Shown in pieces: positions 1,292 to 25,943 of a stretch of DNA of 34,922 bases. The stretch spans positions 1 to 34,922 of the forward strand of contig JABJBP010000128.1 of NCBI GenBank assembly GCA_018665815.1, read 5' to 3'. Below the pieces are notes generated by a model that was given only the letters and a program-made list of their open reading frames with translations, was not told where the DNA came from and made no database searches. This DNA is from Rhodospirillaceae bacterium. GTDB taxonomy: Bacteria > Pseudomonadota > Alphaproteobacteria > Rhodospirillales > Casp-alpha2. The translations under genes and the position numbers were made by a program. Numbering within the stretch: position 1 is the first letter of the stretch; every line of letters begins with the position of its first letter.

Positions 1292-2302
1292 CTAGACTTT
1301 GATCACCAGCTTGCCGAAATGTCCGGCCTCCTGCATGGCATGATAGGCCGCTTTGGCCTCATTGAAGTCGAAAACCGTATCGATGACGGGCTTGATTTGG
1401 TCCGCGGCCATGGCATCCGCCATGTCTTCGAACATCATCCTTGGCCCGACGTAAATGCCGCGGACACTGAGCGATTTTCGCATGATATCCGTCGGTACAA
1501 TGGAGCCGCCGGCGCCGGTTAGAATGCCGATCAAGGCCACGGTGCCACCGACTCGGACGGCGGTGATTGATTTTTGCAACGTGCCCGGGCCGCCGACCTC
1601 GATGACCCGATCAACGCCGTTGCCGTCAGTAAGCTCCAGGACGGCGGTCTCCCATTCGGGAGTGTCGCGGTAGTTGATGGTTTCCGCTGCGCCCAAACCC
1701 TTGATGCGGGATAGTTTTTCATCGCTCGATGAGGTGGCGATGGTGCGGATGCCTAGCATCGTGCAGAACTGTTGGGCGAATACGGAAACCCCACCGGTGC
1801 CCAGGATCAGGACCGTGTCATCGGTGGTGGCCGGTTCAATGGCGTGCAGCGCGTGCCAGGCCGTCAACGCCGCGCAAGGCAGTGTCGCGGCTTCTTCGAT
1901 GGAAAGATATTCTGGAACGGCGACGCAGCCTGTCTCGTTCAGCATCACATATTCCGCCAAGACGCCGTCAATGGCGCCGCCCAACGCCGAGGCCATGGCA
2001 CCCGGGGATATCGGCCCGCTAACCCAATTTTGGAAAAAGCATCCCATCACCCGTTCACCCGGGGTGATACGGGTGACGCCGGTTCCGACGGCCTCGACGG
2101 TGCCGGCGCAATCGGAGTTAGGGACCGTCGGGTAGGGAAGGCCGCGCCCGACGGGATCTAGGATGGTTGAGAGGTCCCGATAATTGACGCTCGACGCACC
2201 AACCTTGACCAGCACTTGTCCTGGCCCCGGCTCGGGCATTGGGCGGTCATTCAATGCCAAGGCGTCGATACTGCCGTCTGATACGATTTCCCAGGCTTTC
2301 AT
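1292..2302 (-). CDS. MDR-family zinc-type alcohol dehydrogenase / quinone oxidoreductase
   Basis: This is a medium-chain dehydrogenase/reductase, probably NAD(P)H-dependent; the substrate is unknown. The N-terminal GroES-like domain contains NYRD (about 40-43) and a PNSDCAGTVEAVG segment. The Rossmann domain has GTGGVS near 168-173, followed by the IATSSSDEKL and INYRD segments typical of the COG0604-like branch. There is no four-cysteine structural zinc loop, which points to the quinone-oxidoreductase-like side of the family. I chose ATG 2302 (336 aa), preceded at a normal distance by GGACGG; an upstream in-frame GTG at 2314 is possible. The gene starts 15 bases after the fliL stop and is probably the last gene of the minus-strand run. 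Its link to the upstream genes is not obvious. Confidence 0.85.
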   Translation of the reverse strand: MKAWEIVSDGSIDALALNDRPMPEPGPGQVLVKVGASSVNYRDLSTILDPVGRGLPYPTVPNSDCAGTVEAVGTGVTRITPGERVMGCFFQNWVSGPISPGAMASALGGAIDGVLAEYVMLNETGCVAVPEYLSIEEAATLPCAALTAWHALHAIEPATTDDTVLILGTGGVSVFAQQFCTMLGIRTIATSSSDEKLSRIKGLGAAETINYRDTPEWETAVLELTDGNGVDRVIEVGGPGTLQKSITAVRVGGTVALIGILTGAGGSIVPTDIMRKSLSVRGIYVGPRMMFEDMADAMAADQIKPVIDTVFDFNEAKAAYHAMQEAGHFGKLVIKV

Positions 2303-2317
2303 CAATCCGTCCACCCG

Positions 2318-2843
2318 TTACTGCAACAAGAATTCTTTGAACAAGATGCCGTGTACATGGGTCGGGGCAAGGACATTGTTCAAAATGTTCACCAAATCAA
2401 ACCGCAGTTGGTCAGATCCAGCCTTGCCTGTCAGGTCCTGGCGTTCCTGGTCGCGGAGATGAGTGATGATGGGGTCAATGACCTCGGTTTTTTTATCTTC
2501 CAGTTTGTCCTGATCCTTGCTGTCCAATTGGACGACAACGATGGCCCGTAAAAATGGCGCGCGGCACCGGCCGGTTTTCAAATCCGCTTTGATCTGTGGC
2601 AATTCGACCCTGACCGGGGCGCCTAATTGAATTTCGGCACTGGTTTTTTCACGCTCGATGCCCAGCATGGAATCCAAAAATCCCAACATGAATGCAGCGC
2701 CGCCGCCAACAATAATCAATGCCAAAACGCCGAGCCCCGCCATCGCGGCAAGTTTTTTCTTGTTAACTTTCTTTTTCGGCTTCCTCGCCGCCCATTTCCC
2801 CTTCCTCGGGTTCCATGGCGTCTTCGTCGATATCGGCGGTCAT
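2318..2843 (-). CDS. fliL: Flagellar basal body-associated protein FliL, N-terminal frameshift
   Basis: FliL is a single-span inner-membrane protein that associates with the flagellar stator and supports motor torque. The open frame from ATG 2743 (141 aa) begins directly with the membrane segment (about residues 3-22) and continues into a periplasmic FliL domain ending HGILFKEFLLQ. This ATG has no Shine-Dalgarno, and no start codon lies upstream in its frame. A good start does exist at ATG 2843 (GGGAG upstream). It encodes an acidic stretch of 26 residues, then TAA at 2765-2763. Shifting +1 within the A-rich tract at 2776-2766 joins the acidic stretch to KKVNKKKLAA and the membrane segment, giving a typical alphaproteobacterial FliL of about 174 aa. 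The coordinates cover this joined form. No other flagellar gene is visible nearby. Confidence 0.75.
2763..2776 (-). other. fliL: Site of the apparent +1 frameshift in fliL
   Basis: On the minus strand the tract reads GAAAAAGAAAGTTAAC. The upstream frame reads GAA AAA GAA AGT TAA. Removing one A from the five-A run (2776-2772) restores Lys-Lys-Val-Asn-Lys into the membrane segment. It may be a base-calling or assembly indel, a true mutation, or recoding; the sequence alone cannot decide. Confidence 0.7.
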
Positions 2844-2880
2844 AGTGCTCTCCCGTTAATCGGATGATCTCACCCGGTGC

Positions 2881-2892
2881 GTTTATATAAAC
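2881..2892. promoter_or_regulatory. 12-bp AT-rich palindrome upstream of fliL
   Basis: GTTTATATAAAC is a perfect palindrome in the 100-base gap between the DUF455 stop and the fliL start. It could hold a -10-like element for fliL, but no convincing -35 partner was found, so the regulatory role is a guess. Confidence 0.25.
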
Positions 2893-2943
2893 AGTAAACT
2901 CAAATGCCGACCGGAATGACAAGGGTTGCGTGTAATCCGTTGC

Positions 2944-3762
2944 CTAAGAATCTGCGGCATCGGCATAAAGTTGATAATAGGCAGGCGCCATGCCGGCGGC
3001 ATCGCGGGCTTGACTATTGAACGGTGGTTTCAGATTACCGCCGAACCGTGTTTCAATAATTTCATGAAAGGCGGCAATGGGTTCTAGTCCGCGCTGCCGG
3101 GCAAGAAATTCAAACCAACGCACACCGGCGGCGACGTGGGGAATTTCCTCGGTGCCAATGAATTCCAAAAGATCGGCGGTGGCGTCGTCACCGGTTCGGC
3201 GGAACCGGGCGACGGCAGCGGGCGTTGTGTCCAGGCCGCGCGCTTCTAACACCATGGGGACCAAGGCCAATCGCGCCAATAGGTCATCAGAAGTTGCCGA
3301 TGAGGCTTCCCAAAGGCCATCGTGGCCAGGTAGGTCGCCGTAGGCGCCGCCAAGATCATCCAGACGCCCGCACAATAATTCGAAATGCCGCGCTTCATCC
3401 GCCGCGACCCCAACCCAATCATCATAAAATGCCGTTGGCATGGCCTCATCAGTGAACCGCGCGACAATGTCCCAAGCCAGATCAATCGCGTTAAATTCAA
3501 TATGCGCGATGGCGTGGACAAATGCGAAGTGGCCGGCTTCCCCGCCCTTTGAGCGCCTGGGCATGAGGCGGGGTGCCAACAGTTCGGGCTTTGGCGGCCT
3601 AGCCGGGCGATCCGGTGGTGACACGTCACCGATGGTCGAAAGGGTGCCGGCTTGCCAGGCATCGGCATGCAACCGCGATTGGGCAATCTTGCCTTCCGGC
3701 GTTGGCTCATTGATGACCGCGACGGCGGCGCCCGTCAGGCTTGTCGGGCTGGTGGCGTTCAC
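2944..3762 (-). CDS. DUF455 ferritin-like protein
   Basis: This 272-residue protein belongs to the DUF455/COG2833 family (PF04305), with a ferritin-like helical fold and no established function. Candidate metal-ligand motifs are spread over the helices: HIEFNAIDLAWD, then DEARHFELL, EARGLD and GTEEIPHV, the Glu and Glu-x-x-His pattern expected for a di-metal site. I chose GTG 3762, which overlaps the bcp stop as GTGA; a GGAGG lies slightly further upstream than usual. The frame is open for 56 more codons upstream, but that part lies inside bcp and has no family features. The tight overlap with a peroxiredoxin gene suggests coupled translation and perhaps a redox or oxidative-stress role, which is inference. 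Confidence 0.85.
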   Translation of the reverse strand: MNATSPTSLTGAAVAVINEPTPEGKIAQSRLHADAWQAGTLSTIGDVSPPDRPARPPKPELLAPRLMPRRSKGGEAGHFAFVHAIAHIEFNAIDLAWDIVARFTDEAMPTAFYDDWVGVAADEARHFELLCGRLDDLGGAYGDLPGHDGLWEASSATSDDLLARLALVPMVLEARGLDTTPAAVARFRRTGDDATADLLEFIGTEEIPHVAAGVRWFEFLARQRGLEPIAAFHEIIETRFGGNLKPPFNSQARDAAGMAPAYYQLYADAADS

Positions 3763-4223
3763 AGCGCGCGCACTGCCTCCAGGACATCCTCGGCGTGATT
3801 TTTGACACGGACCTTGCGCCAGACGTTTCGGATAACGCCCGTCGCGTCGATGACAAATGTGGTGCGGACAATGCCCATAAACTCGCGGCCCATGAATTTT
3901 TTCAACTGCCAAACCCCATAGGCCTCGCAAAGCGCTCCGTCCTCATCGGACAAAAGGGCGAAATTCAAATCGTGTTTGGCTTTGAACTTGTCGTGGCGCT
4001 TGGGGCTGTCTTTGGACGCACCGACAACGACGGCACCGGCTTTTTCGAATGCCGCCATGCGGTCGCGGAAACCCCCAGCCTCGGTGGTGCAGCCCGGTGT
4101 CATGTCCTTGGGATAAAAGTACAAGACCACGGTCTTGCCCTTCAGGTCCTTCAGGGAAAGCGTTTGATCGGAATAAGTGGGAAGGGTGAATTCAGGTGCT
4201 TTGTCGCCGACGTCAACGCTCAT
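3759..4223 (-). CDS. bcp: Thioredoxin-dependent thiol peroxidase (BCP/PrxQ type)
   Basis: BCP-type peroxiredoxins reduce hydrogen and organic peroxides, with electrons from thioredoxin. The 154-residue protein has the thioredoxin-fold start GDKAPEFTLP and the peroxidatic motif PKDMTPGCTTEAGGFRD. The peroxidatic Cys is C45, with T42 and P43 also conserved. The resolving Cys found five residues later in E. coli BCP is Gly here (G50), so the enzyme may act as a 1-Cys peroxiredoxin or use another thiol. I chose ATG 4223; the frame is open 15 codons further upstream, but the family begins at MSVDVGDKAP. It lies 66 bases after the maoC-like gene, and its stop overlaps the DUF455 start. Confidence 0.92.
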   Translation of the reverse strand: MSVDVGDKAPEFTLPTYSDQTLSLKDLKGKTVVLYFYPKDMTPGCTTEAGGFRDRMAAFEKAGAVVVGASKDSPKRHDKFKAKHDLNFALLSDEDGALCEAYGVWQLKKFMGREFMGIVRTTFVIDATGVIRNVWRKVRVKNHAEDVLEAVRAL

Positions 4224-18922: not shown

Positions 18923-19399
18923 GTGAGACTCAGTACCAAAGGACGCTACTCTGTGATGGCAATGGTCGATCTTGCGACCCAATCGGATGGCAATCCCGTT
19001 GCCTTGGCGGATGTCGCCGAGCGCCAGGAAATTTCACTGTCTTATCTTGAACAATTGTTCGGCAAGCTCCGGCGCGGCGGATTGGTGAAAAGTGTCAGGG
19101 GGCCGGGCGGTGGGTATTTGCTGTCGCGCAGTGCCGCGGAAACGCGTGTCTCCGATATCATCATGGCGGTCGATGAGCCGATCAAGGCGACGCGCTGCAG
19201 TCCCGGTTCACCGGAAGGCTGCAAAACCAACAAGAGCCGATGTCTGACCCATGATCTTTGGGAGGAACTAGGCAATCATATTTATCTTTATCTGAGTTCC
19301 GTGTCGTTGGACGACGTGGTTGAGAAACGTGTTTTGGGGCGGAGCGGTCAGCTTTATCAGCCTGGCCACGCGGCCAGCCCGTTCGCCGCCGCCGAATAA
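18923..19399 (+). CDS. iscR: Rrf2-family [Fe-S] transcription regulator, IscR-type
   Basis: IscR binds a [2Fe-2S] cluster and, in that form, represses its own Fe-S assembly operon. The 158-residue protein has an N-terminal winged helix (MRLSTKGRYSVMAMVDLA, then ISLSYLEQLFGKLRRGGLVKS and the GPGGGYLL wing) and a C-terminal cluster-binding segment. The cysteines are C92, C100 and C107, with H110 in CLTH at the place of the E. coli His ligand. Spacing is C-x7-C-x6-C, wider than the C-x5-C-x5-C of E. coli. The start is GTG 18923 with AGGGG eight bases upstream. It lies between cysE and iscS, 79 bases after cysE. RirA is the alternative within the family, but the IscR-box upstream favours IscR. 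Confidence 0.9.
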   Translation: MRLSTKGRYSVMAMVDLATQSDGNPVALADVAERQEISLSYLEQLFGKLRRGGLVKSVRGPGGGYLLSRSAAETRVSDIIMAVDEPIKATRCSPGSPEGCKTNKSRCLTHDLWEELGNHIYLYLSSVSLDDVVEKRVLGRSGQLYQPGHAASPFAAAE

Positions 19400-19446
19400 C
19401 GCCGGCACGAACCAAGACTTTCGAAGGCTTAGGGATTTAGGAAGCC

Positions 19447-20577
19447 ATGACTGACATCGCCTATCTCGATCATAACGCGACGACCCCGGCGCGCCCCGAA
19501 GTGGCGCAAGCGGTGGCGGACGCGATGATGATGACCGGCGCCAATCCGTCATCGGTGCATGCTTATGGGCGCGCCGCGTTGAAGCGTGTCGAGGCGGCGC
19601 GTGCAGACATTGCCCGGCTGGCCGGCACGGAACCCGACAACGTGGTGTTCACGGGCGGCGGGTCTGAAGCCAACAACACAGTCATTTTGGGCGCCGGGCG
19701 CCGCCGTGTGCTGGTTTCCGCGACAGAACATTCGGCGGTGTTGAAAACCGCGCTGGTGCGTGCCGCCGATGCCGATGTCATTCCTGTTGATGATCAGGGC
19801 GTTGTCCACTTGGTGGCGCTGGCGGATTTGTTGGCCCAGAGCGACGAGCCGGCGTTGGTTTGCGTGATGGCGGCGAACAATGAGACCGGTACCCTTCAGC
19901 CGATCCCGGAGATCGTTAAAATTGCCCACGATGCCGGCGCCTTGGTGCATTGTGACGCCGTTCAGGCGGCCGGTAAGGTGGTGGTTGATTTCACCGCGTG
20001 GGGTGTCGATTTTATGGCGCTGACGGGTCACAAGATCGGCGGCCCGCAAGGCATTGGCGCGATCTTCAAACGACCTGGTCTAGCGCTGCGGAGTTTGATT
20101 ACCGGCGGTGGCCAAGAACGCGGCGCCCGGGCGGGAACGGAAAATGTCGCCGCCATTGTGGGCTTTGGCGTTGCGGCCCAACTGGTGGCGGAAAATCTTG
20201 AAACGTCAGCGCCTAGGATGGCTGAATTTCGCGACGCTCTGGAGGCGCAAATCAAGGAACTCTCGCTGGCGACGATGATCTTTTCCGCCGACGCGCCACG
20301 ATTGCCCAATACCAGCAATTTTTCATTGCCGGGCGTGCGCAGCGACACCCAGGTCATGAGCCTTGATTTGGCCGGTGTTGCGGTGAGTGCCGGATCGGCT
20401 TGTTCGGCGGGCAAGCTAGAGCCCAGCCATGTGCTTGATGCCATGGGGGTCGCGCCGGACATTTCAACGACCGCGCTTCGGGTCAGTTTTGGCTGGAATT
20501 CCGAGGCCGGTGACGTCGACAAATTTATCGAGGCCTGGAAAGGCCTTATTCCAGAGCGTGCTGAAACAGCGGCATAA
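19447..20577 (+). CDS. iscS: Cysteine desulfurase, NifS/IscS-like (group I)
   Basis: This PLP enzyme takes sulfur from cysteine as an enzyme-bound persulfide and releases alanine. The 376-residue protein has the N-terminal YLDHNATTP, a cofactor-contact segment ATEHSAVL, the PLP lysine K196 in TGHKIGGP and the catalytic C319 in [17 protein letters not shown]. The long flexible Cys loop marks the group I (NifS/IscS) branch, unlike SufS later in the cluster. AGGAAG stands before ATG 19447. No iscU or nifU scaffold gene is present in the window. The desulfurase may therefore feed SufBCD, or thiolation enzymes such as MnmA encoded 8 kb downstream; this is inference. Confidence 0.93.
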
Positions 20578-20612
20578 ACAAAAATTCAAAGTCATACGGG
20601 GAAGACAATAAA

Positions 20613-22070
20613 ATGGTCGCTACGGTTGAAACAGCGCAACAAGTTCAGGATTTCGCGGACGAGAAGTATAAGTACGGCTTCGTCACCGATATTGAGACTG
20701 AGTCCGCGCCGAAGGGGTTGAACGAAGACATCATCCGCTTCATTTCGGCAAAAAAGAAAGAGCCCGAATGGATGTTGGAAAGCCGGCTCAAGGCCTACCG
20801 CTATTGGTTGACCATGCCAGAGCCGGAATGGCAGAAACCCAATTTTCAGGCCATCGATTATCAGGACACCTATTATTTCTCGGCACCGAAATCCATGGCC
20901 GACGGGCCGAAAAGTTTGGATGAGGTCGATCCGGAACTTTTGCGCACATATGAAAAGCTTGGGATTTCGCTGAAGGAACAAGAACGTCTGGCTGGTGTCG
21001 CCGTCGACGTGGTGTTCGATTCGGTTTCCGTGGCGACGACATTTAAGGCGAAGTTGGAAGAGGTCGGTGTAATTTTCTGTCCGATTTCCGAAGCCATCGA
21101 GCGGGTGCCTGAGATGGTGCAGAAGTATATGGGAAGCGTCGTGCCCTATACGGACAACAAGCACGCGTGCCTGAATGCCGCGGTGTTCACCGACGGCTCG
21201 TTCGTCTATATCCCGAAGGGCGTCAAATGCCCGATGGAGCTGTCGACGTATTTCCGTATCAACGCCGAAAACACCGGTCAGTTCGAACGCACCTTGATCA
21301 TCGCGGACGAAGGTTCCTACGTCAGCTATCTGGAAGGCTGCACGGCACCCATGCGTGATGAAAATCAGTTGCACGCCGCGGTCGTCGAATTGGTCACCAT
21401 GGATGATGCGGAGATTAAATATTCAACCGTCCAAAACTGGTATCCGGGCGACGAAGAAGGGCGTGGTGGGATTTATAATTTCGTCACCAAACGCGGTGCA
21501 TGCCGGGGGCGAAACTCGAAGATTTCCTGGACCCAAGTGGAAACCGGCTCGGCGATCACCTGGAAGTACCCAAGTTGCATCCTGCAAGGTGACAATTCTG
21601 TCGGCGAGTTCTATTCCATCGCCATTACCAACAACCTGCAGCAGGCCGACACCGGTACCAAGATGATTCACCTTGGCAAAAACACCACGTCGCGGATCAT
21701 TTCGAAGGGAATTTCGGCGGGCCGTTCGGATCAAACCTACCGCGGTTTGGTCAGGATGGGGCCGAAGGCCACGGGGGCCCGAAATTACACGCAATGTGAC
21801 TCGCTCTTGATCGGCGATTCCTGCGGTGCGCACACGGTGCCCTACATCGAGAGCAAGAACCGCGACGCGATTGTCGAACACGAAGCAACGACATCGAAGA
21901 TCAATGAAGATCAATTGTTTTACCTGCGCCAACGCGGCATCGACGAGGAGGCCGCTGTGGCCCTGGTGGTCAACGGGTTCTGCCGTGATGTGTTGCAGCA
22001 ATTGCCCATGGAATTCGCCGTCGAGGCACAGAAATTGGTTGGAATCAGTCTGGAAGGCAGCGTCGGCTGA
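20613..22070 (+). CDS. sufB: Fe-S cluster assembly scaffold protein SufB
   Basis: SufB forms the SufBC2D complex, accepts persulfide sulfur from SufE and builds the nascent Fe-S cluster. The 485-residue protein keeps the family's key C-terminal region: [15 protein letters not shown] with C395 and C404, one of which corresponds to the essential E. coli Cys405, followed by [17 protein letters not shown]. The beta-helix core contains [19 protein letters not shown] and the YSTVQNW segment. GGGGAAG precedes the start at a suitable distance. It lies 35 bases after iscS and is part of the same block. Confidence 0.97.
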
Positions 22071-22118
22071 CGTTGGCTGTGGACACTGAAAAGACAAAGT
22101 AGAAGGTCATCAAAGCAT

Positions 22119-22868
22119 ATGTTGGAAATAAGAAATCTGCACGCCAGCGTTGACGGTACGAAAATTCTGAAAGGGATTGATCTGTCCATCGAAGCGGGTG
22201 AAACCCACGCGATCATGGGCCCCAACGGGTCCGGGAAAAGCACGCTTTCCTATGTATTGGCGGGGCGCGAGGGCTATGAGGTCACGGCCGGCGAAATCCT
22301 CTACAAAGGCAAGGACCTTACTGAATTGTCGCCTGAGGAACGGGCCGGCGAAGGCGTATTTTTAGCGTTTCAGTACCCGGTGGAAATTCCCGGCGTCTCA
22401 AACACGATCTTTCTCAAAGAAGCGCTGAATTCGATCCGCCGCTATCGGGGCGATGAGGATTTGGATGCTATGGCGTTCCTCAAGGTCGTTCGTCAGAAAA
22501 CCAAGGAGCTCAATATCTCCGACGACATGCTGAAACGCGCCGTCAACGTCGGTTTCTCGGGCGGTGAAAAGAAGCGCAACGAAATTCTTCAGATGGCGGT
22601 TCTTAATCCAGCGCTAGCGATCCTTGATGAGACCGACAGCGGGCTCGACATCGATGCGCTGAAGATTGTTTCCGATGGCGTCAATGCGCTGCGCGCACCG
22701 GATCGGGCGACGCTGGTCATCACCCATTACCAACGCCTGTTGGATCATATCGTGCCGGACCGGGTGCATGTTCTCGCGAAGGGCCGCATTCAGCGTTCTG
22801 GCGGTAAGGAATTAGCCCTGGAGTTGGAAGAGAAAGGCTACGCCGAATTCGCTGAGGCAGCGGCGTAA
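22119..22868 (+). CDS. sufC: Fe-S assembly ATPase SufC
   Basis: SufC is the ABC-type ATPase of the SufBC2D scaffold; its ATP cycle drives the conformational change that exposes the cluster-building site. The 249-residue protein has Walker A GPNGSGKS (34-41), signature SGGEKKR (147-153), Walker B LAILDE (166-171) followed by the SufC-typical TDSGLDIDAL, and H-loop ITHYQRLL. There are no membrane segments. AGAAGG lies upstream of ATG 22119. It is 48 bases after sufB and 14 bases before sufD. Confidence 0.97.
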   Translation: MLEIRNLHASVDGTKILKGIDLSIEAGETHAIMGPNGSGKSTLSYVLAGREGYEVTAGEILYKGKDLTELSPEERAGEGVFLAFQYPVEIPGVSNTIFLKEALNSIRRYRGDEDLDAMAFLKVVRQKTKELNISDDMLKRAVNVGFSGGEKKRNEILQMAVLNPALAILDETDSGLDIDALKIVSDGVNALRAPDRATLVITHYQRLLDHIVPDRVHVLAKGRIQRSGGKELALELEEKGYAEFAEAAA

Positions 22869-22882
22869 GGGCGGCAGAGCAT

Positions 22883-24232
22883 ATGACACAGAACGTCACA
22901 CCCGTCGAAGCCTTCGTCGCCGACTTTGAAGCCGTCAATGGCCTGTTGGCGGGCAATGATCTGCCGTGGCTGAGCTCGCTTCGGCGGAGCGGCATTGAAC
23001 AGTTTTCCGGTCAAGGGCTGCCGCACGCGAAGCTCGAAGCCTGGAAATACACACGCCTCCGGCCGTTGGAGGATACGTCTTTCAGGCCCGTGAATGACGC
23101 CGATGGTAGTGCCGGCGTCGCGTCCATTCCGGCGGTGCTGCCATCTGATTCAAGCCATCCGCGGATCGTGTTCGTCAACGGCACGCTGCGGCTGGATTTA
23201 TCGTGGCTTGATGCCTTGCCCGATGGCGTCAGCATCGAATCGCTTGGCCAAGTCATCGCGTCCGACCCAGAGTGGGTCGGCGCGCATCTTGGCCGGATCG
23301 GGCGATTAGACGGGCAGCCATTGACCGCCTTGAACACGGCAATGATGAATTGCGGCTGTGTCATCCGGGTGCGTCGCGGCGTCGTGGTCGAAGCCCCCAT
23401 TGAAGTGATCTATGTTGCCGGGCTGACAGATTCACCGGTTGCCTATCACCCGCGCAACCTGATCGTCATGGAAGAAAACAGTCAGGCGACCATTGTCAAA
23501 CTGCATGCCGGCTTGGGCGTTGGGGCCTATTTCGCCAATGCGGTGACCGAGGTTGAAGTTGGCGACGGTGCGACCCTCCGGCATTACCGGGTACAATCGG
23601 AAAACAGGGAGTCGACGCACCTTGCCAACTTGAATGTGCGGATTGGCAAGGACGCCACCTATGACGGCTTTGGCCTACACCTGGGCGGACGGTTGTCCAG
23701 GACCGACGTGTTCGCGCGCCTCGAAGGCGAGGGCGGGCATTGCGGGCTCAACGGTGCATACCTGATGAAGGGGCGCGAGCACTGTGACACCACCACGGTG
23801 ATTGAGCACCATGCCGCGCATACGACGTGCCGGGAGATTTTCAAGGGCATCCTTGACGATGAGGCGCGCGGTGTCTTTCAGGGCAAGATCATTGTCCACC
23901 CCGGCGCCCAGCAGATTGATGGCCATCAGCTGTCCAACGCGTTGCTGTTATCAGACCGGGCGGAAATGGATGCCAAGCCTGAATTGGAAATCTACGCCGA
24001 CGACGTCAAGTGTTCACACGGCGCGACGACCGGAAAGCTTGATGATACGTCATTGTTTTATTTGCGGTCTCGCGGCATTCCCGAAGCGTTGGCGCGCAAC
24101 CTGCTCATTCAATCGTTCCTCGCCGAAGTGATTGATGAGGTCAAGGATGAGGCCGTTCGCGAGGCCTTGATGGACAAGGTAATTCACTGGTTGCCGGCGC
24201 AATGCTTCCTGGCCGAGGAATGGACGAAATAA
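22883..24232 (+). CDS. sufD: Fe-S cluster assembly protein SufD
   Basis: SufD is the SufB paralogue in the SufBC2D scaffold and is needed for iron entry. The 449-residue protein has the N-terminal EAWKYTRLRPLE motif and the C-terminal core with KCSHGATTGKLDDTSLFYLRSRGI. Its H379 is the equivalent of the important E. coli SufD His360. The ATG is preceded by a G-rich AAGGGCGG. The stop TAA overlaps the sufS start as TAATG, so translation of the two is probably coupled. Confidence 0.95.
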   Translation: MTQNVTPVEAFVADFEAVNGLLAGNDLPWLSSLRRSGIEQFSGQGLPHAKLEAWKYTRLRPLEDTSFRPVNDADGSAGVASIPAVLPSDSSHPRIVFVNGTLRLDLSWLDALPDGVSIESLGQVIASDPEWVGAHLGRIGRLDGQPLTALNTAMMNCGCVIRVRRGVVVEAPIEVIYVAGLTDSPVAYHPRNLIVMEENSQATIVKLHAGLGVGAYFANAVTEVEVGDGATLRHYRVQSENRESTHLANLNVRIGKDATYDGFGLHLGGRLSRTDVFARLEGEGGHCGLNGAYLMKGREHCDTTTVIEHHAAHTTCREIFKGILDDEARGVFQGKIIVHPGAQQIDGHQLSNALLLSDRAEMDAKPELEIYADDVKCSHGATTGKLDDTSLFYLRSRGIPEALARNLLIQSFLAEVIDEVKDEAVREALMDKVIHWLPAQCFLAEEWTK

Positions 24233-25503
24233 TGAGTAAAATCCTGCCCCTTCAGGACGCCGGTCCGGGCGACAACTCTTTGACTGCTTTTGATGTCGAA
24301 AAAGTCCGTGCCGACTTTCCGATCCTGGCCCGCGAAGTTTATGGAAAGCCCTTGGTGTTCTTGGACAATGGCGCCAGTGCGCAAAAGCCGCGTGCCGTCA
24401 TTGATTGTGTCCGTGAAGTTTATGAAAGCTATTACGCCAACGTGCATCGCGGCGCCCATTACTTAAGCCAACGTTCTACTGATGCCTTTGAAGAAGCTCG
24501 CGTCACCGTCGCCAAATTCCTAAATGCGAAAACCGAAGACGAAGTGATCTTTACATCAAACGTCACCGAGGCGATCAATTTGGTTGCCGCGACCTGGGGC
24601 CGGAAATTTTTGGGTGAAGGCGATGAGGTGATCATCACCGAGATGGAGCACCATGCTAATATCGTACCGTGGCAATTGCTGCGCGAAGAAAAGGGCATTG
24701 TTCTGAAAATTGCCCCGATCCGCGATAACGGTGAGTTTGTCTTAGAAGACTTCAAGGCCTGCCTGAACCCGCGCACCAAATTGGTGGCAATCACCGAATG
24801 CTCAAACGTCTTGGGGTCCCGGGTGCCGATCAAAGAGGTCACGCGTTTGTCCCATGATCAAGGCGCCTTGGTTTTGGTCGACGGCGCCCAGGGCATCGTT
24901 CATCAACCGGTTGATGTGCAGGATCTGGATTGTGACTTCTATGCCTTCACCGGCCACAAGCTCTACGGGCCCAGCGGCATCGGCGCGCTGTACGGCAAAT
25001 GGGACGTGTTGAACACCATGCCGCCGTACCAAGGTGGCGGCGACATGATCGAGCGTGTGACGTTCGAGAAAACAACATTCAAGGAACCGCCGCACCGGTT
25101 CGAGGCCGGGACGCCGCCGATTGTTCAGGCCATTGGACTGGGCGCTGCGGTGAATTACGTTGCCGATCTGGGCATGGAGAATATCTCAGCCCATGAGCAC
25201 GGCATTCTCGCCTACGCCAATGAACGCCTGAAGGCTATTGAGGGCTTTAAGGTCGTCGGCGACGCGCCAGACAAGGCGGCGATCATTTCATTCTTGGTGG
25301 AAGGCCTGCACCCCTTTGACGTGGCCACGGTCCTTGATCGCCAAGGCGTGGCCGTCCGGGTCGGCCAGCATTGCGCCGAGCCGTTAATGGATCGGTTAGG
25401 GATTGAGGGCACGGTGCGGGCCTCGTTTGGGCTCTACAACACCCGCGAAGACGTCGATGCCTTGGCGGGGGCCATTGAGAAAGCCAAGGAGTTGCTGGCG
25501 TGA
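24232..25503 (+). CDS. sufS: Cysteine desulfurase SufS (group II)
   Basis: SufS removes sulfur from cysteine and passes the persulfide to SufE for SufBCD. The 423-residue PLP enzyme has VFLDNGASAQKP, the NVHRGAHYLSQRST segment, TEMEHHANIVPWQ, the PLP lysine K243 in TGHKLYGPSG and the catalytic C381 in VRVGQHCAEPLM, the short-loop group II arrangement. Upstream in-frame starts at 24202 and 24220 lie inside sufD. I chose ATG 24232, overlapping the sufD stop, because the family begins here. The stop TGA overlaps the sufE GTG start. Confidence 0.96.
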   Translation: MSKILPLQDAGPGDNSLTAFDVEKVRADFPILAREVYGKPLVFLDNGASAQKPRAVIDCVREVYESYYANVHRGAHYLSQRSTDAFEEARVTVAKFLNAKTEDEVIFTSNVTEAINLVAATWGRKFLGEGDEVIITEMEHHANIVPWQLLREEKGIVLKIAPIRDNGEFVLEDFKACLNPRTKLVAITECSNVLGSRVPIKEVTRLSHDQGALVLVDGAQGIVHQPVDVQDLDCDFYAFTGHKLYGPSGIGALYGKWDVLNTMPPYQGGGDMIERVTFEKTTFKEPPHRFEAGTPPIVQAIGLGAAVNYVADLGMENISAHEHGILAYANERLKAIEGFKVVGDAPDKAAIISFLVEGLHPFDVATVLDRQGVAVRVGQHCAEPLMDRLGIEGTVRASFGLYNTREDVDALAGAIEKAKELLA

Positions 25504-25943
25504 GCACGGAACTTTCCAATCTTGAGCGCTATCAGGAATTTGTCGATTCATTGGAATTGATCGACGACGAAGACATGCGCTTCGAATACATTATCGATAT
25601 CGGCAAGCGCGCCAATGACGATGACTTTCCGGAAGTCTTCAAGGTTGACGCCAATCTCATGCACGGCTGTATGTCGAAGGTTTGGATTGCTGATCGAATT
25701 GAGGATGGCCGCCACTATTTTTCCGGCTTTAGTGATGCCATCATCGTCAAGGGGCTGGTGACAATGATGATCGAATCGTTCAGCGGCCTGACCGGCGATG
25801 AGCTTCAGGACATCACTGCTGAGCACGTGCGCCATTTGAATCTCGGCGCGCTGACGACGCAGCGCCAGGTCGGCATGATGGCGATGCTTGAACATTTTCA
25901 AAAACTCGGCCGCAGGGCTGACGAAAGCCAAGCGGCGGAATAA
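25500..25943 (+). CDS. sufE: Cysteine desulfuration protein SufE
   Basis: SufE accepts persulfide from SufS and hands it to SufB, raising SufS activity. The 147-residue protein has the acceptor C57 in MHGCMSKVWI and the family's SDAIIVKGLVTMMI and HLNLGALTTQRQVGM segments. It starts with GTG 25500, overlapping the sufS TGA by four bases (GTGA), an arrangement that suggests coupled, balanced synthesis of the two partners. It is followed after 11 bases by sufT. Confidence 0.95.
   Translation: MSTELSNLERYQEFVDSLELIDDEDMRFEYIIDIGKRANDDDFPEVFKVDANLMHGCMSKVWIADRIEDGRHYFSGFSDAIIVKGLVTMMIESFSGLTGDELQDITAEHVRHLNLGALTTQRQVGMMAMLEHFQKLGRRADESQAAE

Follow-up and report, generated by a model that had tools for sequence, protein, structure and literature searches.

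A second FliL gene split by a frame break in a Rhodospirillaceae bacterium: probable recent decay of a redundant paralogue

The minus-strand gene at positions 2318–2843 of the window (the whole stretch of 34,922 nucleotides that was analysed) codes for a protein of the FliL family and is split by a +1 frame break. The gene is a paralogue that lies outside the clade of the main-type FliL of this genome, and its break most likely reflects gene decay of an ordinary kind, the alternative being a slip in sequencing. We estimate at about 60% the probability that a real and recent indel inactivated a redundant FliL copy which the genus is losing, the window gene then being a very young pseudogene. 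The lineage would be retaining its main fliL while losing the second gene. A change of one base in the length of an A-rich tract would have put the lysine stretch, the membrane segment and the periplasmic FliL domain out of frame and, since these downstream parts were moved, translation from the upstream start would yield just an acidic peptide of 26 residues. The extra base is presumably truly present in the genome, the full protein is presumably not made and its loss probably costs little.

Translation from ATG 2843–2841, which is preceded by a Shine-Dalgarno-like GGGAGAG, proceeds on the minus strand through 26 codons (2843–2766) coding the acidic amino terminus MTADIDEDAMEPEEGEMGGEEAEKES and halts at the premature TAA 2765–2763. 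The intact copy of genome G006 opens with a similar acidic tail, MTAPADESEMDLETDLDDADNEEAEGG. The remainder of the gene (2773–2318) is found in the +1 frame of the same strand, which reads KKVNKKKLAAMAGLG... (also given as KKVNKKKLAAMAGLGVLALIIVGGG...) through FKEFLLQ to a stop codon at 2320–2318 and codes for a lysine-rich stretch, a membrane segment recognized by eye and the FliL domain (2605–2321). The charged tail is out of frame with the membrane segment and the domain. No ATG, GTG or TTG is found in the +1 frame between its previous stop codon and the lysine stretch, and the earliest start is ATG 2743–2741, bordering the membrane segment. The frame changes near the A5 tract of GAAAAAG (2776–2772), where the window copy has one base too many relative to in-frame relatives; another tract, of six A residues (2758–2753), lies 3' of the premature TAA. 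The downstream frame matches PF03748 (FliL) with an E-value of 5.6e-11 and 43.3 bits (curated cut-off 24.6), and aligns over residues 1–151, with 68% identity, to a genome of the same genus. The split is therefore not the product of a chance open frame. These results bear out the original observation of an acidic frame stopped at the TAA, of a lysine-rich stretch and membrane segment placed in a +1 frame without a start of their own, and of a break, defined against the frame of relatives, in an A-rich tract of a FliL-family gene. A search of window positions 2200–3100 for a sigma-70-type promoter found none.

The genome carries two FliL genes: the stronger match (E 1.9e-19) is on contig C74 and the window copy (E 1.0e-10) on contig C69. 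The C74 gene is intact, codes for 179 residues and adjoins ORFs that were read by eye as FliM and as a flagellar rod or hook protein. The neighbours of the window copy are not flagellar genes. Upstream lies a gene coding a DUF455 protein (2947–3780, minus strand; PF04305, E 2.8e-93), which in relatives too is found beside the second FliL gene, and downstream one coding a protein of the zinc-binding alcohol dehydrogenase family (1295–2314, minus strand; PF00107, PF08240). A tree of 58 domain sequences over 100 columns, built from 31 of 39 main-type and 27 of 35 window-type loci, separates the two groups on a branch with 100/100 support, and the window copy groups beside that of genome G004 with support 92/80. 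“FliL2” is our own label for the clade of the window copy and “main type” stands for the clade of the C74 copy, main-type assignment being by clade and not by the neighbours of each copy. It is because of the two genes in one genome and of the 100/100 split that the window gene is classed as a paralogue. It shares with FliL proteins a PF03748 domain above the cut-off and, by eye, a hydrophobic segment preceding that domain, and it matches the NCBIfam FliL models weakly but over nearly their full length; its 49 bits lie far below the best equivalog cut-off of 197, which the 146.5 bits of the C74 copy do not reach either. It differs in its location away from flagellar genes and in its separate clade. 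Calling the gene simply fliL, as was done originally, needs correcting: it is a second, paralogous FliL, distinct from the copy that sits with flagellar genes.

The window copy as the sole fliL of this genome is ruled out by the intact C74 gene. The concern that motility may be impaired does not follow, because the main FliL is intact among flagellar genes and because, according to the abstract of PMC10127578, fliL alleles without the amino-terminal region keep motility. Annotators should accordingly record neither a defective main fliL for this genome nor, on that ground, a possible loss of motility.

FliL2 is present in 35 of the 48 genomes of the family that were compared (E 1e-20 or better). 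A DUF455 match was obtained in 20 genomes, and its coordinates place it immediately upstream of FliL2 in 13 of them. Excluding the copy of G043, which ends at a contig end, 34 FliL2 genes are assessable and 29 of them carry the upstream start, the charged tail, the membrane segment and the domain in one frame, so neither a start at the equivalent of ATG 2743 nor a conserved recoding event looks ancestral. The other five are broken. Besides the window copy (G000), they are those of G004, from the same genus, with an in-frame TAG close to the 3' end and an amino terminus in frame; G025, with one stop codon and one frame change; G032 (L025 / L068), with a surplus base where the lysine stretch, near the start, has an A8 tract and, toward the 3' end, a second break in a T5 tract; and G035, with a frame change in the middle of the gene. 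The main-type genes served as control (39 copies from the same family, in genomes that are partly different, the copy of G002 being cut by a contig end): 37 of 38 are in frame. The exception, in G013 (L213:1149 onward), is the sole FliL match of its genome and has one extra base in an A8 tract, within the lysine stretch that precedes the membrane segment. Breakage of FliL2 (5/34) exceeds that of the main type (1/38) non-significantly (Fisher p 0.094), unless the two remnants described below, from G001 and G003, are counted (7/36 vs 1/38, p 0.026). Other PF03748 matches, namely third copies (mostly from genus g14) and weak matches, were excluded from both counts; a check of them for internal stops in the table found none.

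An intact FliL2 was found in none of the five genomes of the genus that were compared (G000–G004), and G001, G002 and G003 yielded no FliL2 match at 1e-20. A worn remnant with 31–40% identity, a stop codon and gaps follows the DUF455 gene of G001 at the syntenic spot (L052:1751–2029). In G003 a remnant of 27 residues follows the DUF455 gene at a contig end (L054:69–149, E 0.002). The syntenic stretch examined in G002 has no FliL2 match, 75 bases separating its DUF455 gene from the next ORF. Absence alone is a weak argument, because the genomes of the genus are 75–98% complete (81% for G002, whose syntenic spot was nevertheless covered), whereas the remnants constitute positive evidence. FliL2 thus appears to be dispensable, as judged from close relatives in which it is damaged or without an intact copy, the case of G003 resting on a short remnant.

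Sequence downstream of the break is well preserved. Conservation was scored in an alignment of 23 of the 35 FliL2 sequences, which left out the broken copies of G025, G032 and G035, the cut copy of G043 and eight intact, more distant copies (G005, G009, G020, G023, G026, G031, G034 and G037). Conservation in 90% or more of the reference rows defines 25 columns, of which one is changed in the window copy (I to L), none in the G004 copy and 0 to 6 in intact copies. A codon model of seven copies gave an overall omega of 0.040. The window branch has an omega of 0.225 vs 0.040 elsewhere (2dL 2.55; 2dL 0.41 against omega 1) and, because synonymous change is saturated, it is indistinguishable both from the rest of the tree and from 1. 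The branch of G004 rejects omega 1 (0.053, 2dL 7.53) despite its own stop codon, so that lesion is at most very young; omega 1 is also rejected on the branches of G022 (0.013, 2dL 5.46) and G008 (0.032, 2dL 11.37). The nearly unchanged conserved columns indicate that the window break is recent, or an error.

Decay of a redundant gene is favoured by a frame that is broken against intact orthologues, by the presence of an intact main FliL on C74 and by the failure to find an intact FliL2 in any of the five genomes of the genus. The window gene resembles an ordinary pseudogene made by a single-base indel in its frame break, its intact paralogue and the state of the gene in sister species, where it is damaged, worn or undetected; it is unlike one in having a single lesion so far, the rest being unworn. 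Against decay stand the conservation of the sequence after the break, which equals that of intact copies and would also be given by an assembly error or by a gene still in use, and the occurrence of other single frame breaks in the same assembly. The latter bear on the second most likely explanation, clearly less probable than decay, that one base was added by an assembly or sequencing error and that fliL2 is intact in the organism, its downstream frame being conserved like that of an intact gene. For this comparison, 636,559 of the 3,893,358 bases in the assembly (about 16%) were set against open frames, 150 codons or longer, taken from samples of G021 (1,212,001 bases, a single-contig genome) and G022 (237,672 bases). 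Single frame breaks were found at three of 120 comparable places (L103:18550–19088, L102:6814–7499 and L092:4028–4407), each with protein matches of 47 to 81% identity on both sides; in the reciprocal control, where G022 and G021 were each queried with the remaining two genomes, there were none at 38 places in G022 and none at 125 in G021. The difference (3/120 vs 0/163) has a Fisher p of 0.075, in a control that is blind to breaks near a poorly conserved amino terminus, leaves the window break itself unflagged and may include antisense frames among its places. Since these three further breaks lie in conserved sequence, the assembly contains either indel errors or young pseudogenes, the latter at a few percent of its genes. 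Bacterial genomes usually have a few percent of their genes broken, which was counted against the error. So were the shortness of the A5 tract, the 636 kb containing 1,069 A/T runs of exactly five, and the genus-wide damage to FliL2, which is an independent reason to expect a real lesion.

Some related observations were made along with this control. One of the three broken genes codes, by eye, for a NapC-like cytochrome. A fourth row with two frames, L078, from an earlier count of 62 places, was discarded as a neighbouring relative and not a break, its two pieces matching one and the same query region. A wider count, with flags at 30 of 176 places in the assembly and at 24 of 81 in stretches of five relatives, was left unused for being too noisy, most flags seeming to come from antisense frames and upstream-extended starts. 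Reading the ORF lists of the window by eye revealed no other broken gene, the programmed site of prfB aside. A contig scan, which may omit records of the same or of a very near genome, matched two relatives titled Rhodospirillales bacterium, the MAGs OFTM193 and OFTM364, and turned up no other assembly of this species.

Explanations in which FliL2 is still made from the broken gene fare worse. Ribosomes ending at TAA 2765–2763 could reinitiate at ATG 2743 and produce a FliL2 of 141 residues without the charged cytoplasmic tail. This is mechanically possible, the ATG being in frame and 19 bases past the stop, the domain beyond it is conserved, and the motility of amino-terminally truncated fliL alleles, as stated in the abstract of PMC10127578, speaks in its favour. 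Relatives starting at the equivalent position were looked for, and none of the 29 intact FliL2 genes does so, which dismisses ATG 2743 as an ancestral start; each of them has a charged tail before its membrane segment (by eye), a clear Shine-Dalgarno sequence is absent before ATG 2743 (by eye) and the product would be devoid of the lysines that precede the membrane segment. We regard such a restart as very unlikely.

Programmed +1 ribosomal recoding or transcriptional slippage could join the two frames and set the level of FliL2, as had been proposed. The A-rich tracts at the junction fit this idea, as do two other copies, the G032 FliL2 and the G013 main-type FliL, each with a surplus base in an A8 tract at this lysine stretch. 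The codon before the TAA is AGT (by eye), unlike the prfB signal CTT TGA C. With a programmed prfB-type shift the window gene has in common only that a +1 shift would be needed; that motif is lacking and the break is not conserved. The 29 of 34 assessable copies that read in one frame need no shift, the amino terminus of G004 is in frame, and the G032 gene is broken a second time, which fits decay. Conserved recoding was rejected since neither the break nor the slip site is conserved. In the abstract of PMC1088944, selection against slippage is described as evident, for a large proportion of genomes, at a run length of nine, and the paper allows for slippage at shorter runs in some bacteria; the A5 tract is well under nine. 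Recoding that sets the FliL level is therefore unsupported, and we hold it to be extremely improbable.

The lysine-rich, A-rich juxtamembrane stretch might instead work across the family as a switch, in which slippage during replication or transcription toggles the membrane anchor. Behind this reading is the finding of one base too many at the same stretch in three FliL genes of three genera (A5 in the window FliL2, A8 in the G032 FliL2 and A8 in the G013 FliL). These three cases would be explained as well by indels in A tracts that are mutable or prone to error, the G032 gene has its second lesion, and 29 of 34 FliL2 and 37 of 38 main-type genes are plainly in frame. Such a switch is scarcely credible.

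A second clade of FliL located off the flagellar loci, which is damaged in, or lost from, several lineages although nearly all keep the main copy intact, could help to reveal the role of an extra FliL. Among the FliL papers listed in literature searches, titles and abstract openings contain no recognisable account of this second FliL.

Two other regions of the window were read by eye. The plus-strand gene that extends up to position 1288 codes for peptide chain release factor 2 (prfB) and contains at 223–238 the sequence AGG AGG CAT CTT TGA C, the well-known programmed +1 site of this gene. Its first frame ends with LLRRHL and the second continues past the shift site. Positions 18923–25943, also on the plus strand, read as an IscR-like regulator and sufB, sufC, sufD, sufS and sufE-like genes, all of them open.
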